A program made the translations under genes and the position numbers. Below the pieces are notes generated by a model. The model made no database searches, was not told where the DNA came from, and saw only the letters and a list, made by a program, of their open reading frames with translations. Source: Pararhizobium sp. IMCC21322 (GTDB lineage: Bacteria > Pseudomonadota > Alphaproteobacteria > Rhizobiales > GCA-2746425). Taken from it: 64,000 nucleotides of DNA. Numbering within the stretch: the stretch's first letter is position 1; every line of letters begins with the position of its first letter. The stretch lies in NCBI RefSeq assembly GCF_030758295.1, contig NZ_CP132335.1, positions 3,200,412-3,264,411 of the forward strand, in the 5' to 3' direction. Below, piece after piece: positions 6,445 to 12,942 of the stretch.

Positions 6445-7740
6445 TCAGTCAGGGATGCTTTTTTTCGACCATTTCTCTGGTTCTTGTAACTGGTCCATTG
6501 CCCAACCAACTGTAAAACCGTGCAAAATAGTCGATAGGAGAATTACCAGGCCAACCAACGACCACAATTGCGCTTCGTTGACAAACTCCATATGACTGCC
6601 AGCATAACAAAGATAATAGATTGAGCCGATCCCTCGCACGCCATAAACCGAGACCACAGCTCGGTCTCTGTGAGCCATGTTGGAACCAATCAACGCTATC
6701 CAACCCGAGAGTGGCCGGATAACCACCAGGAGCAAAATGGCCACAGCAATATGGCTCCACGACAGATACAGAAACAGAGCGGGCAAAACAGTACCCAGTG
6801 CCACCAGCAACAGCGCAGTCAATGCATGTTCTATGGATTCTGAAAAGTCATGAAGACGTCTGTGAAAATGGTGTCGGTTTTCAATACGCCTGAGTTTAAG
6901 TCCCATTATCGCCACAGCGATGAAACCATACCCTTCAACCAACTCGGTTGAGCCGTAACACAGGAACACACCTGCAAGAGCGACCACACCCGATCCGGTA
7001 TTGGCCAAAAGCGCATCCTTTGGGATAACAAACAGAATTTGCCCAAGCGCCCATGCGCCGGCCCACCCCATGGCAACACCAACGACAATGCGGTAAACGA
7101 CATCGCGCAAAAGCCACTCAAGCCCCCACTCGCCGGGATTGAGACCCTGGACCGCCACGATCAGCCCAAGATAAACGAAGGGAAAGGCCAGACCGTCATT
7201 AAGTCCCGCTTCGGTCGTAAGTGTAAAGCGAACCGGATGCTCCGCCCCTTCTTGCGGCGGACCAACCTGAACATCCGCTGCAAGAACCGGATCTGTGGGC
7301 GCCAGCACAGCGCCGAGCAGAATGGCACCGGCAGCGGTCAACCCGACTAAACTTGAGCCCACCAATGCCACCGCCAGAATGGTCAAAGGCATTGCAATAC
7401 ACAACATGCGGGCTGTGGGGGTCCATTTTCTCCACGGCCGCAGGCTATCAATACGCATGCCCGCCCCGAACAAGGCAATAATGACAGTCATCTCGCTAAC
7501 GAGCTCCCAGGGCAAAGGTGACTCCCGGGGGTCGGGCATATCTGGAAAACCCGGAATAAGGAGCGCCGCGCCTGCGCCGAACAGGATCATGAGCGGAGCA
7601 GACGCCGGCTCACGCGTCGAAATTAGCCTGGGCAGCCAACGCGCCAGAATGACGACGATACCAATGACCGATAAAAGGACATGATAGGAATTGAATGAGA
7701 AGAAAGGTTCGCCGGACAAAACTGCTCCTGCTGCTGCCAT
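6445..7740 (-). CDS. Cation:proton antiporter, CPA1 (NhaP-like) family
   Basis: This 431-residue membrane protein exchanges Na+ or K+ for H+. It has about 12 hydrophobic segments and the CPA1 hallmarks GAVLAPTDPVLAADVQVG (residues 145-165 area) and TEAGLNDGLAFPFVYLG, whose acidic residues form the ion site. The C-terminal part (RDRAVVSVYGVRGIGSIYYL) matches the conserved Arg-containing helix. There is no large cytoplasmic regulatory tail. Ion selectivity cannot be decided from the sequence. No operon partner is evident: the P450/luxI operon lies upstream on the same strand, ending 99 bp away. Confidence 0.88.
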   Translation of the reverse strand: MAAAGAVLSGEPFFSFNSYHVLLSVIGIVVILARWLPRLISTREPASAPLMILFGAGAALLIPGFPDMPDPRESPLPWELVSEMTVIIALFGAGMRIDSLRPWRKWTPTARMLCIAMPLTILAVALVGSSLVGLTAAGAILLGAVLAPTDPVLAADVQVGPPQEGAEHPVRFTLTTEAGLNDGLAFPFVYLGLIVAVQGLNPGEWGLEWLLRDVVYRIVVGVAMGWAGAWALGQILFVIPKDALLANTGSGVVALAGVFLCYGSTELVEGYGFIAVAIMGLKLRRIENRHHFHRRLHDFSESIEHALTALLLVALGTVLPALFLYLSWSHIAVAILLLVVIRPLSGWIALIGSNMAHRDRAVVSVYGVRGIGSIYYLCYAGSHMEFVNEAQLWSLVGLVILLSTILHGFTVGWAMDQLQEPEKWSKKSIPD

Positions 7741-7839: not shown

Positions 7840-8040
7840 TCAGTGCTTCATTACCAGCTCTGATGTAATTTTAGAGGCAATCATCAGCTTTGCGGTTTCC
7901 AGATGTCGCGCCGCATCTGGCTCCAGCTCGGATGCTTCCGAAATCGCATATTCCAGAATAGCCATCAGAGCTTGCCGTTGCTTGTATTCATCGCTGTAAC
8001 GATCAATGAAATCACGCAGATCATGGTTGGCTTCCCGCAT
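7840..8040 (-). CDS. Small 66-residue protein coupled to the P450 gene
   Basis: The ATG at 8040 follows the P450 stop codon with one base between (TGATATG on the minus strand), which suggests translational coupling. The product starts MREANHDLRDFIDRYSDEYK and ends ITSELVMKH. It is highly charged, predicted helical, and has no signal peptide. A longer in-frame reading from 8295 runs antisense-like through the P450 gene with a Trp/Cys/Pro-rich composition and is rejected. No family is recognised. Its position as third gene of the luxI operon suggests a part in signal production or P450 function, but that is inference. Confidence 0.6.
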   Translation of the reverse strand: MREANHDLRDFIDRYSDEYKQRQALMAILEYAISEASELEPDAARHLETAKLMIASKITSELVMKH

Positions 8041-8041
8041 A

Positions 8042-9337
8042 TCAGGCCACCGCCATACGGTCTTTGAATTTGCGTTCATCCCGGACGGTAAAACTAAGTT
8101 CATGATCTGGTGCCAACAGCGTAATGGAGGGAATGGGTACCATGTCAGCCGCGGTAAATGTGCCAGACATGTTGAAGGCAGATGCAAATTGCAGCGCCAC
8201 CAATTGCAGCTCGAATAAAGCAATGGCCATGCCAATGCACGCTCTGCCACCCACGCCAAATGGCATGTAGGATGGATGTGAGTAATCACGATCAAGCCTG
8301 AACTCGTCCGGCTGTTCCCAGTTGCGGGGGTCTTTATGCAAGGTCCACGGGCTGATCATCACCATATCGCCCCGACGGAAGCGCTTGCCCTCCACTTCGG
8401 CCGGTTGCAAAAACTCTCGTGAGGTCCACCATCCGGCAGGGTAAACCCGCAGGGTTTCCTTGACAAAGGACTCGCTCAAAGGCGCGCGGCGCAAAGCGCT
8501 GGAATCGCCTTTTTCCAATGCTGCCATGACACCATCTGCCTCATAGGCCAGAATATCCGCAAGCGCAGGATCACGTGCCAGTTGGTAAAGCATCCAGGCA
8601 ATTGATGCGCCAGTTGTGTGATGCCCGGCGATCAGCAATCCAAGCAATTCCGCATTCACCTGATCATCACTCAAACCTGCCTCTTCCAACGCGTTCAATA
8701 AAGGCGATTTGTTGTTATTGGCACGCGCCCTGTTGATAACGGCGCCAACGATTTCCCGAGCGCCATCAATACGTTTGGACCTTTCTGCAGCTTTTCTGGG
8801 TCCGTTTGGCAAGACGCGAAACATATCATCTGCAAGCTCGGCTTCAACTGTCTGAACAGCTTCAATCAGCGCCATGCGATCTGCAGCACTCAGCACATCA
8901 TGTCCAAACAAGGCAGTCGCCCCCATCTGCAGCGCAAGCGGTGCAGAAATCGAGGCCGGCCGGAAGCTTTTGTCAGATGACAGTCCTGCAATATAGCCAT
9001 TTACGACAGCAATCATCTTGTCGATGTTGCCAGAAATGGCATTGCGTTGAAGATGCCTGTGAATGGCAGCTTTCGAAGCCTTGTGCGCCTCACCATTATT
9101 GGTCAGCAAGCTCTCGCCCATAATGGGACGCAAGCGCTGTACCAGGGACCCCTTATCCAGTTCCGCTGTCGGCCATTTCAAGATTGAGCGGGCCGTCATC
9201 GGTCCATTGCACAAATAGATCGGGCGCACACCGAGCGCCAGAGGCACAAAACCCTGTTCCGCTGCCTGAGCCTTGCTGTTTAACAGCGTCAGCGGGTCAC
9301 GCCGAAATGCTGCGACGTCGCGGTAAGGAATATACAT
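8042..9337 (-). CDS. Cytochrome P450 in the luxI operon
   Basis: This 431-residue haem monooxygenase has the I-helix oxygen-binding motif LLIAGHHTTGAS, the K-helix ExxR (ETLRVYP) and the haem loop FGVGGRACIG with the thiolate Cys near residue 367. No membrane anchor is present, so it should be soluble and depend on separate ferredoxin or flavin reductase partners. The start at 9337 has a strong ribosome site (GGAGGAG) four bases upstream and overlaps the last 41 nt of luxI. An alternative upstream start at 9475 would lie deep inside luxI. The substrate is unknown; the overlap with luxI makes an acyl-homoserine lactone, or its acyl chain, a candidate. Confidence 0.9.
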   Translation of the reverse strand: MYIPYRDVAAFRRDPLTLLNSKAQAAEQGFVPLALGVRPIYLCNGPMTARSILKWPTAELDKGSLVQRLRPIMGESLLTNNGEAHKASKAAIHRHLQRNAISGNIDKMIAVVNGYIAGLSSDKSFRPASISAPLALQMGATALFGHDVLSAADRMALIEAVQTVEAELADDMFRVLPNGPRKAAERSKRIDGAREIVGAVINRARANNNKSPLLNALEEAGLSDDQVNAELLGLLIAGHHTTGASIAWMLYQLARDPALADILAYEADGVMAALEKGDSSALRRAPLSESFVKETLRVYPAGWWTSREFLQPAEVEGKRFRRGDMVMISPWTLHKDPRNWEQPDEFRLDRDYSHPSYMPFGVGGRACIGMAIALFELQLVALQFASAFNMSGTFTAADMVPIPSITLLAPDHELSFTVRDERKFKDRMAVA

Positions 9338-10004
9338 CGGACTCCTCCAAAGGATTGGCGTGAGACAAAAGCTGTAAAAACCGGGACCCGATTTGAGCAG
9401 CCATGGGTATTTCCCCCGAGACCACCTTGACCGGTCTGCCCGCAGCATCAATTCCGATCTGAAATGGCGGGCCATAACGTTCGGTCACAATCCCTATGCG
9501 TGATAGCAGACGCTCGTGAGACAGGTCTGAAAAGGCCACAAGACGATCAGCATTCACTGCAAAAGCAAAGCGAAACATAGAGGCATAGGTGGTCAGGGCA
9601 TATGAAAAACGCCGCTCGCCCATGGCGACCACAAAACGGCTGATTTCCCAACTGCTTTCGTCTTCCGGATAGGATTTGAGAGTGGCGAGGTGACGGAATT
9701 TTTCTGCTGCAAGATAAGTCCTGTCAGCTCTGATAGCCCGGAAAGATCCAACCAGAATGTCCTTATGCCGAACCGCACAATGCACGGTGTCAGCCCGGTC
9801 GAACTCATCCCGTTCCAAACCTTGGGTAACCGTAAGATCCCAGCCAAGTGAATCAACCAGAATGCGCTTGCGAAACGCCATCACATCAAGCACATCCTGG
9901 CAGGCGTCTTCAGCAGTTCCGATGACAATTTTTATGTCTGAATCTGAATTTGAAGTACCTGTTAAAAGCAAGGTCGCCTCCCGCCAGCAGCTATGGTGAG
10001 ACAT
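9297..10004 (-). CDS. luxI: Acyl-homoserine lactone synthase, LuxI family
   Basis: This enzyme makes an N-acyl-homoserine lactone from S-adenosylmethionine and an acyl carrier. Nearly all family-invariant residues are present in correct spacing: Arg45, Trp55, Asp66 and Asp69 (ERDEFD), Arg89, Phe103, Glu120 and Arg123 (SSWEISRF). The position equivalent to LuxI Phe28 is Leu49, a departure from consensus. The ATG at 10004 leaves only 34 bp to luxR. A TTG at 9971 preceded by GGGAGG would give a more usual N-terminus and is a fair alternative. The gene runs into the P450 gene. The acyl chain cannot be predicted from sequence. Confidence 0.93.
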   Translation of the reverse strand: MSHHSCWREATLLLTGTSNSDSDIKIVIGTAEDACQDVLDVMAFRKRILVDSLGWDLTVTQGLERDEFDRADTVHCAVRHKDILVGSFRAIRADRTYLAAEKFRHLATLKSYPEDESSWEISRFVVAMGERRFSYALTTYASMFRFAFAVNADRLVAFSDLSHERLLSRIGIVTERYGPPFQIGIDAAGRPVKVVSGEIPMAAQIGSRFLQLLSHANPLEESDVYSLPRRRSISA

Positions 10005-10038
10005 AACGATTTATGCTAGCAAATAACCATCCCGATAA

Positions 10039-10833
10039 ATGGTGAGTTTTGAAATGAAACTTGAGAAGGCAATATCTGACATCGAAAGATGTTCTTCTCA
10101 GGACCAGTTGGTGTCTGTCCTCAACACCATTGTGAATGATTTCGGATTTGCCGCATTCTGCTTTCTTGATGGTGGAATGCCCGGCGAAATTGACCCCTTC
10201 TACGTCGGAACAACGGGCAGCGGATGGGAGATCGACTACGCCTCAAACGACTTTATCCTAATTGATGAATGTCTCAAAACCGCTCGCAGAACGAATGTGC
10301 CCTTCCTGTGGGCCAGTGTGCCGCTTCCACAAAGAACCGGAAAAAGAAAACCTGGTGCCCACAGGCTCATGGAAGCCGCCATGGATTATGGATTTCAGGA
10401 AGGCCTCGTCATACCGTTCCATTTTGTCGATGACATTGGGCGCATGCGCTCCTGCGTCTGCACCTTGTTCTGGCATGAAAAGCCAGCGCGCCTGTATCAG
10501 CACATCGAAGATATGCGCCATTTCCTCCATGTCATCCTGATCTACTGGATGCAGGAGCTCATGCGCATTCGGGAGACAGGAAAAAGCAACGGCGACGTAA
10601 TACCCTTCAGCCGGCGGGAACAGGCATTTCAAACAACGCGCCTTACGGATCGTGAACGCGAAGTGCTGTCATGGGCAAGCAGGGGCAAAACGGCAGCGGA
10701 AACCGCACGTATTTTATCTATTTCAACAGAGACAATTGATACCCATATAAAGAATGCTATGGAGAAGCTTCAGGCCGGTAATAAGACGCATGCTGTTGCC
10801 AGAAGCATCTTTCTTGGTTTAATCGACGTTTAG
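10039..10833 (+). CDS. luxR: LuxR-family quorum-sensing transcription regulator
   Basis: This 264-residue regulator has an N-terminal autoinducer-binding domain (about residues 15-165) and a C-terminal LuxR helix-turn-helix (LTDREREVLSWASRGKTAAE to HIKNAMEKLQ, about residues 200-250). It is divergent from luxI and is its likely cognate receptor. An ATG at 10054 with GGTGAG upstream is an alternative start, five codons in. The intergenic gap is only 34 bp, with a TGCTAGCA palindrome at 10014-10021. No convincing 20-bp lux box was found there, so any operator may extend into the coding regions. Confidence 0.9.
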   Translation: MVSFEMKLEKAISDIERCSSQDQLVSVLNTIVNDFGFAAFCFLDGGMPGEIDPFYVGTTGSGWEIDYASNDFILIDECLKTARRTNVPFLWASVPLPQRTGKRKPGAHRLMEAAMDYGFQEGLVIPFHFVDDIGRMRSCVCTLFWHEKPARLYQHIEDMRHFLHVILIYWMQELMRIRETGKSNGDVIPFSRREQAFQTTRLTDREREVLSWASRGKTAAETARILSISTETIDTHIKNAMEKLQAGNKTHAVARSIFLGLIDV

Positions 10834-11904: not shown

Positions 11905-12942
11905 ATGTCTCAAACAAGCAGTCACGAACACCAAGGCCTGATGCCGCAAGGTCCTGAAGCTGCAGTTGCAGCTTTAGCCCTTCTTGCGGAGGGGCAACTG
12001 GTTGGCCTGCCAACAGAAACAGTCTATGGGCTGGCAGCCGATGCCACGAGCGACCGGACCGTTGCACAAATATATGCCGCCAAAGGTCGCCCCAGCTTCA
12101 ACCCGCTGATCTGCCACGTGGATGGGGTCGATATGGCTCACTCATTCGCCCATATCGATGAACGTGCGCATCAACTCATCAAAAAATTCTGGCCCGGCGG
12201 TCTTACGCTGGTATTGCCTCGCAAAGCCGGGGCGTCAGTCAGCGAGCTGGCAATTGCTGGCCTTGAAACTATAGCCCTGCGCTGCCCGGACAGCGCCTTC
12301 ACCAGATCAATCATCAGCCAACTGCAACGCCCCCTCGCCGCTCCCAGCGCCAATCCCTCTGGCCTCCTGAGCCCCACACGGGCCAGTGATGTCCGGTTGG
12401 CCTTCCCGATTGACACAGTTCCGCTGGTGGTTGACGGCGGACCCTGTCCGGTGGGACTGGAATCCACAATTGTTGCCTGCTGTCCCGGAGCTCCATTGAC
12501 ACTCCTGCGACCTGGTGCCGTCACCCGGGAGCAATTAGAGGCTGCGTTGCACGGAGAGGTCCTTGAAGATCACCGGGCAACTGCAGATGATCAACTCTCA
12601 CCATCTGCGCCAGGCATGCTCACATCCCACTACGCGCCAAGGGCAAAAGTTTGCTTGAGTTCCGGGGCCGCGTCACACGTGGGACACAATGACGCAGTCC
12701 TGACATTTGCCGGACACAGCCTTCCCGGCCAAACAGACGCAAACACCTGTCTGGACCTCAGCAGATCCGGAGACTGCGTGGAAGCAGCCGCAAATCTGTT
12801 TTCCATGCTGCGCAGATTGGATGCACTCCACCCAGACACAATTCACGTTGTAGCGCCCCCCAGGAAGGGTCTTGGCGTAGCAATTTACGACCGCTTGCAG
12901 CGTGCATCCGCGCCGCGTAACAATGACAAACACGATTTGTGA
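11905..12942 (+). CDS. L-threonylcarbamoyladenylate synthase (Sua5/YrdC)
   Basis: This enzyme makes threonylcarbamoyl-AMP from Thr, bicarbonate and ATP for t6A37 modification of tRNAs reading ANN codons. The YrdC domain fills residues 15-205, with the KxR...SxN pattern (AAKGRPSFNPLI) and PTETVYGLAADA, PSANPSGLLSPT and LESTIVACCPG. A C-terminal Sua5 domain (SAPGMLTSHYAPRAKV onward) makes it the two-domain Sua5 form of about 345 residues. ATG 11905 lies two bases after the dnaJ-like stop; a GTG at 11899 that overlaps that stop is possible. Confidence 0.92.
   Translation: MSQTSSHEHQGLMPQGPEAAVAALALLAEGQLVGLPTETVYGLAADATSDRTVAQIYAAKGRPSFNPLICHVDGVDMAHSFAHIDERAHQLIKKFWPGGLTLVLPRKAGASVSELAIAGLETIALRCPDSAFTRSIISQLQRPLAAPSANPSGLLSPTRASDVRLAFPIDTVPLVVDGGPCPVGLESTIVACCPGAPLTLLRPGAVTREQLEAALHGEVLEDHRATADDQLSPSAPGMLTSHYAPRAKVCLSSGAASHVGHNDAVLTFAGHSLPGQTDANTCLDLSRSGDCVEAAANLFSMLRRLDALHPDTIHVVAPPRKGLGVAIYDRLQRASAPRNNDKHDL

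Follow-up and report, generated by a model that had tools for sequence, protein, structure and literature searches.

The diversity of acyl-homoserine lactones (AHL) is usually attributed to the acyl donor chosen by the synthase, and LuxI enzymes draw on acyl carriers. In Pararhizobium sp. IMCC21322, a stretch of 64,000 nt of contig NZ_CP132335.1 (the window in the following) contains within positions 7840–10833 a luxI gene, which overlaps the gene of a cytochrome P450, is followed by a small open reading frame (ORF) and faces a divergent luxR. We read this locus as a LuxI/LuxR quorum sensing (QS) system with a built-in P450, which would tailor the AHL or its acyl donor. Based on sequence comparison a probability of about 0.68 is given to this reading. 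The luxI-P450 pair itself is real, old, widespread, conserved and under-described.

Related systems described so far

The canonical LuxI/LuxR systems (PF00765; PF03472 and PF00196) have in common with the locus the synthase residues except for Phe28, the divergent luxR and a palindrome between both genes. In contrast to them, all 10 carrier genomes of the order sample pair the synthase of the clade described here with a P450, and the genes overlap.

For Bradyrhizobium prioriisuperbiae BL16A, divergent luxI/R genes (02191/02192) with a 77-bp spacer have been reported, and the gene directly downstream of luxI is annotated as farnesene synthase/epi-isozizaene monooxygenase (PMC13136126). This is the description of CYP170A1 (3el3), which is itself near the window P450. 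Judged from this annotation, the BL16A locus is possibly a member of the luxI-P450 family. It differs in being the neighborhood of one genome, and neither an operon or overlap nor a family or a role in signal tailoring is described in the accessible part of the text (PMC13136126). For the marine Rhodobacteraceae strain MOLA 401, which has poly-hydroxylated AHLs, the authors hypothesize that a P450 modifies the acyl chains (PMC5479921). Here, the P450 homolog is located somewhere in the genome and the accessible sections state no linkage to luxI.

An oxygenase gene adjoining luxI, as in the window, is likewise found in Novosphingobium and other sphingomonads. In the novI-phyH arrangement, which applies to four of the five pairs from Novosphingobium, luxI is adjoined by a gene for a phytanoyl-coenzyme A (CoA) dioxygenase (PMC3704786, PMC4288048). 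This oxygenase differs in being iron(II)-dependent, its gene is convergent with luxI, and the accessible parts of both papers mention neither an overlap nor a fusion. Furthermore, CinS of Rhizobium leguminosarum and MmaP of Methylobacterium fujisawaense are small proteins, which are co-transcribed with luxI and bind PraR (PMC4149787, PMC10790750). The small ORF of the window resembles them as a short ORF in a luxI operon of a genome with a PraR-like gene; its sequence was compared with luxI-linked small ORFs. In the open-licence literature of PMC, which leaves aside subscription papers, neither a conserved operon of luxI and a P450 gene nor a P450-LuxI fusion was found described.

Organization of the locus

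The gene order luxR <-> luxI-P450-small ORF was confirmed, with luxI, the P450 gene and the small ORF on the minus strand and luxR on the plus strand. The features are the following:

9297..10004, minus strand: luxI, acyl-homoserine-lactone synthase, 235 aa from ATG 10004 (PF00765, 8.9e-17)
8042..9337, minus strand: cytochrome P450, 431 aa (PF00067, 5.5e-43; I-helix AGHHTTG, ExxR with E294 and R297, heme Cys367 in FGVGGRACIG)
9297..9337, minus strand: luxI/P450 overlap of 41 nt in two reading frames, with the P450 ATG inside luxI
7840..8040, minus strand: small ORF for a protein of 66 aa with two predicted helices, 1 nt past the P450 stop
10039..10833, plus strand: luxR, divergent autoinducer-binding regulator (Autoind_bind 7.4e-13, GerE 2.1e-16)
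10026..10045, no strand: candidate lux-box, palindrome ACCATCCCGATAAATGGT(GA) between luxR and luxI, best shared 20-mer of 20 loci

The 41-nt overlap of luxI and the P450 gene, claimed by the first-pass annotation, was borne out at 9297–9337, and GGAGGAG stands in front of the P450 ATG at 9337. The same annotation had the small gene overlapping the P450 stop. Here, the 66-codon ORF is indeed located directly behind the P450 gene; the overlap has to be corrected to a gap of 1 nt, since the TGA stop is followed by a single T and then by ATG. Judged from the sequences compared, the luxI-P450 arrangement exceeds chance, since it is present in 7 families of the order sample as well as beyond the order, and since the 41-nt overlap persists among proteins which are ~40% identical.

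Conservation of the overlap and co-divergence

The overlap was measured at 26 loci, including 17 of the core clade other than Azospirillaceae. In 16 of these 17, the P450 has an in-frame ATG that gives an overlap of exactly 41 nt, and the exception (L137) has 140 nt, since its LuxI frame runs on. Outside the 26-locus set, 44 nt to the P450 ATG were read from the sequence of L032. The overlap is 1 nt in two Azospirillaceae loci. For G439 and G612, the candidate P450 starts are located 11 and 4 nt inside luxI or else behind it, and in the five tandem loci measured of a second P450 group (group B, see below) the P450 starts at least 187 nt behind luxI. The median identity to the window proteins is ~40% for LuxI and 39% for the P450, and the overlapping stretch has therefore been dual-coding through much divergence. 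Here, the same bases encode the F-x-R-D-P run at the N-terminus of the P450 and the S-A-stop at the C-terminus of LuxI.

The identity matrices over 18 loci correlate with r = 0.87 for LuxI-P450, 0.90 for LuxI-LuxR and 0.81 for P450-LuxR. None of 5000 permutations reached any of these three values; the nominal significance of the correlation, motif and adjacency tests is inflated by the near relatives included. The trees of LuxI and the P450 agree on several sub-clades, and G043, G367 and G287 are placed differently. G641 has a long-branched LuxI in the core, and its P450, at the other contig end, belongs to group B.

Distribution and repeated linkage of luxI and P450 genes

The first-pass annotation called for a search of this synteny in other genomes. 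The order sample contains it in 7 families, further cases are Azospirillaceae and a Bradyrhizobium plasmid, and a fusion of P450 and LuxI exists as well. A confinement of the synteny to the source genome is rejected by this distribution across families. Among 397 genomes of the order, a LuxI profile found 10 genomes at E<1e-50 with the next match at 3e-27. The P450 profile found the identical 10 genomes at E<1e-150, followed by G134 with 2e-133, a match which is cut by the contig end, and then by 7e-53. These 10 genomes fall in 7 families, each has the P450 gene directly downstream of luxI, and at E<1e-150 the P450 never occurs away from luxI in this sample.

A scan of named genomes resulted in 46 LuxI loci. 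The ten best (L064–L073) and L079 have a P450 directly downstream, in L107 and L108 the P450 is fused to LuxI, and the contig of L090 ends 74 nt past luxI. Named carriers are Microvirga lenta SM9, M. pudoricolor, Aquabacter cavernae Sn-9-2, Amorphus coralli DSM 19760, Azospirillum sp. RU38E and Niveispirillum lacus 1-14. Furthermore, a Bradyrhizobium japonicum plasmid (NZ_CP066352.1), which was typed as conjugative, carries the luxI-P450 pair.

Some side observations concern such plasmids. On the B. japonicum plasmid, the gene of an IS1380-family transposase is located behind the luxI-P450 pair (L148:9986–11329), and past it a possibly helical small ORF is present (11993–12205). On plasmid pMSC49b of Methylosinus sp. 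C49 (L182:3337–5232), a clade-related P450 adjoins an IS66 gene, with no luxI annotated in the stretch examined. A 57-aa ORF behind this P450 was rejected as a counterpart of the small protein, as it resembles P450 C-terminal sequence.

The class sample comprises 385 genomes with 71 luxI rows in 56 genomes, and P450s were searched in 55 of these, leaving out the window genome. In at least 10 of the 55 (G439, G530, G630, G711, G579, G599, G700, G612, G665 and G543), three of which represent one genus, a P450 is located ≤1 kb from luxI or is fused to it. Random placement expects 0.51 such genomes (P about 2e-11), an expectation that is slightly low as no more than 24 P450 candidates were scored in each of seven genomes. 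Counted by family, 8 of 35 have a luxI-linked P450 (P about 2e-9). Adjacency by chance is rejected by this test. G490 and G641, with luxI at the end of one contig and the P450 at the end of another, were left uncounted.

In the P450 tree, P450s linked to luxI fall into three groups, namely A, B and the fusion. Group A (23 rows, 100/98) comprises the P450s of the window and of its relatives within the order together with those of Azospirillaceae, G439 and G612. Group B contains G700, G530/G630/G711, G579 and G599 as well as three P450s without demonstrated luxI linkage, two of which sit at contig ends of luxI-bearing genomes. Unlinked P450s fall between the luxI-linked groups, and the number of origins is not firm because the fork joining the groups lacks resolution. 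In the group-B loci L149–L153 and L143, the order is luxR-luxI-small ORF-P450 in tandem. Behind the luxI-linked P450 of L152, a gene resembling an AMP-dependent acyl-CoA/acid ligase was noticed by eye (7856–9385).

The fusion is a single 686-aa frame of P450 and then LuxI opposite luxR (L107:4543–6603 and L108:2614–4674; also L184). Its carriers G543 and G785 are the two genomes of genus g284 among 17 genomes of their order, and the two fusion proteins are 96% identical. Here, the LuxI half retains the aligned catalytic residues. None of 377 matching plasmid records covered 80% of the fusion. In the 71 luxI rows of the class, one frame was long enough (G543, 699 aa), and just 2 of the 17 genomes of its order have a fusion.

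Synthase, P450 and LuxR

The Autoind_synth domain of LuxI scores 61.7 bits vs. a curated cut-off of 24. All conserved positions, which we take to be Arg24, Phe28, Trp34, Glu/Asp/Asp, Arg69, Glu100 and Arg103, are kept in the window protein except for Phe28, which is Leu (residue 49 from ATG 10004). In the alignment, R45, W55, E64, D66, D69, R89, F103, E120 and R123 match the other LuxI rows, with L49 at the Phe28 position. This substitution, which had been pointed out before, is real and turned out to be a genus-level change. Among 53 LuxI rows, of which that of L032 has no residue at this position, Leu is present solely in three genomes of the genus of the window, and the clade members outside this genus carry Phe where the position is aligned. 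Leu28 was therefore rejected as a hallmark of the luxI-P450 system. Tyr is found at this position in L100 and L101, the second LuxI of Microvirga lenta and one LuxI of M. subterranea.

Since ATG 10004 is not kept in the congener G003 and GGAGG plus an in-frame TTG (9971 in the window) are kept in all three congeners compared, the latter start is favored, and LuxI probably comprises 224 aa from TTG 9971 rather than 235 aa.

The P450 displays the heme Cys motif, ExxR, the I-helix Thr and the P450 fold, and T241, E294, R297 and C367 are invariant across 19 aligned P450 sequences. The NCBIfam P450 equivalogs were rejected as an identity, since the scores are well below the cut-offs. An AlphaFold2 (AF2) model has a mean predicted local distance difference test (pLDDT) of 85 and a predicted template modeling score (pTM) of 0.87, with low pLDDT near the heme loop at 362–364. 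Among the 50 matches listed, the closest folds are CYP184A1 (also as oleic-acid complex), P450 BM3, CYP97A3 and CYP170A1. Fatty-acid P450s (CYP184A1 and BM3) are among these closest folds, and the matches listed include a BM3 variant crystallized with N-decanoyl-homoserine lactone. The modeled fold is compatible with an acyl-chain substrate.

LuxR contains the Autoind_bind and GerE domains of the receptors and its gene adjoins luxI; its start may be at 10054 instead of 10039. In the luxR-luxI spacer a palindrome was seen by eye in 18 of 20 loci, with a score of 394 vs. 189–211 in six shuffles, and the palindrome at 10026–10045 is a candidate operator.

A putative oxidized quorum signal

The gene order, overlap, co-occurrence, co-divergence, repeated linkage and fusion are established. 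We infer co-transcription as well as the substrate, the product, the preference of LuxR and the role of the small protein. LuxI would make the AHL from S-adenosylmethionine and an acyl donor, and the P450, which is probably co-translated with luxI through the 41-nt gene overlap, would oxidize, e.g., by inserting oxygen, either the acyl chain of this lactone or the acyl group immediately before it is transferred. The divergent LuxR, retained with the pair, should prefer the oxidized product, and the two-helix protein encoded last in the operon would most likely serve as an effector of QS output in the manner of CinS and MmaP. Since the synteny is widely conserved and a fusion exists, the P450 is best read as oxidizing the signal or its precursor, and the carriers probably communicate by an oxidized quorum signal.

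As a sub-case, the P450 might act before LuxI on acyl carrier protein-bound (acyl-ACP) or acyl-CoA substrates by hydroxylation, desaturation or C–C cleavage, the latter being performed by CYP107H1/BioI, and LuxI would then transfer an odd acyl group. Acyl carriers are the substrates of LuxI and a fused or overlapping enzyme pair suits either reaction order; on the other hand, nothing separates oxidation of the precursor from that of the finished lactone, and BioI is absent from the family matches and from the 50 fold matches listed. This order of events is rather unlikely, and its share lies within the probability of the tailoring reading and is not added to it. A P450 that turns the AHL less active, and thereby limits or times the signal, would fit the oxidation of aliphatic chains by P450s, for which Chowdhary et al. 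2007 is cited in the accessible part of PMC5479921, and the crystal complex of BM3 with an AHL among the fold matches listed. Nevertheless, a synthase and a signal breaker made together, even in one polypeptide, would be wasteful and LuxR co-diverges with the luxI-P450 pair, which makes such a built-in breaker improbable.

QS operons often include outputs. The P450 could merely be an output enzyme under QS control, for secondary metabolism or detoxification, whose gene is carried along in the luxI operon, and PMC13136126, in its accessible part, interprets one such locus as a secondary-metabolism neighborhood. For a mere output enzyme, one would hardly expect an overlap of fixed length, P450s of three groups linked to luxI, a fusion of both enzymes and, in 397 genomes, no P450 at E<1e-150 apart from luxI, and we regard this reading as improbable, too.

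Several points weigh against a tailoring function. The fold neighbors listed are just 17–22% identical to the P450, with carotenoid, sterol and drug P450s among them. A redox partner was not among the nine window genes scanned and was not sought elsewhere. Shared regulation alone can conserve a gene pair. G439 and G612 belong to the core on the P450 tree (100/98) and not on the LuxI tree, where support is weak, and the fusion is known from metagenome-assembled genomes of one genus only. Within the genus of the window, the system is present in three of five genomes and missing from two (G001 and G004). Furthermore, 32 of the 46 LuxI loci from the named genomes gave no P450 match at E≤1e-4 in the flank examined, and a P450 is therefore no general need of LuxI.

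Beyond the single locus, we lean slightly toward P450-oxidized lactones being a separate and widespread class of quorum signals in Alphaproteobacteria, with several recruitments of different P450s to luxI, a dual-coding 41-nt overlap which keeps the pair together in the main clade and one genus with a bifunctional P450-AHL synthase. If this is true, a dedicated oxidase, encoded with the synthase or fused to it, adds a tailoring step to AHL diversity. Such tailored signals could be private, and the tailoring would explain lactones that are missed by standard biosensors and by liquid chromatography-mass spectrometry (LC-MS) against standards. The named carrier strains make the question of an oxidized signal directly testable, and the natural fusion would represent a one-enzyme test.

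The small protein and the neighboring gene

For the small ORF no Pfam match at E≤0.1 and no NCBIfam match was obtained, in agreement with the first-pass annotation, which had assigned it to no known family. Nevertheless, it is a member of a conserved, unnamed family, which comprises the proteins of the window, Amorphus, G134 and Aquabacter as well as the C-terminal tail of the G087 P450, where a related domain is fused to the P450 C-terminus (L031:8946–10439). A profile built without the genus of the window finds the window protein with E = 1.2e-4 at a fixed database size of 8982 ORFs; the protein set was chosen after the ORFs had been seen. On the same basis, the other leave-out E-values are 1e-8, 8.6e-5 and 8.3e-5, with 1.6e-8 for the G087 tail, and the protein of the congener G003 scored only 0.21. 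The small ORFs at the same position in G232, Erken, G287, Dive96 and XanthoMAG were not tied to this core family (E 2.2 to 230), and that of G310 was aligned only. The AF2 model predicts helices at 2–39 and 41–65 with a mean pLDDT of 83.

In group B, an ORF of 64–83 aa is located between luxI and the P450 gene (six loci), and a similar ORF was seen by eye behind luxI genes for which no P450 is known, of which there are at least eight. Homology of the window protein to luxI-linked small ORFs reached hhalign probabilities of 9% and 4%, and it ranks 221st against a profile of luxI-downstream small ORFs. Because of this weak match, the likeness to CinS and MmaP is kept only as an analogy of position, by which the small protein may be an effector of QS output without a chemical role.

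In the genome of the window, a 146-aa frame with a cro/C1-type helix-turn-helix (HTH) is located directly before metK (L181), and the gene after metK is presumably trmB. By eye and by this gene order, which is the one described for praR, the HTH frame was named PraR-like. Its presence is weak evidence, since conservation of PraR in the class is stated in the accessible part of PMC4149787.

Downstream of the operon, a Na+/H+ antiporter gene is present on the same strand (6445–7740). It probably stands outside the unit, since it is next to the operon in G003 and was not found in a 19-kb stretch of G002.

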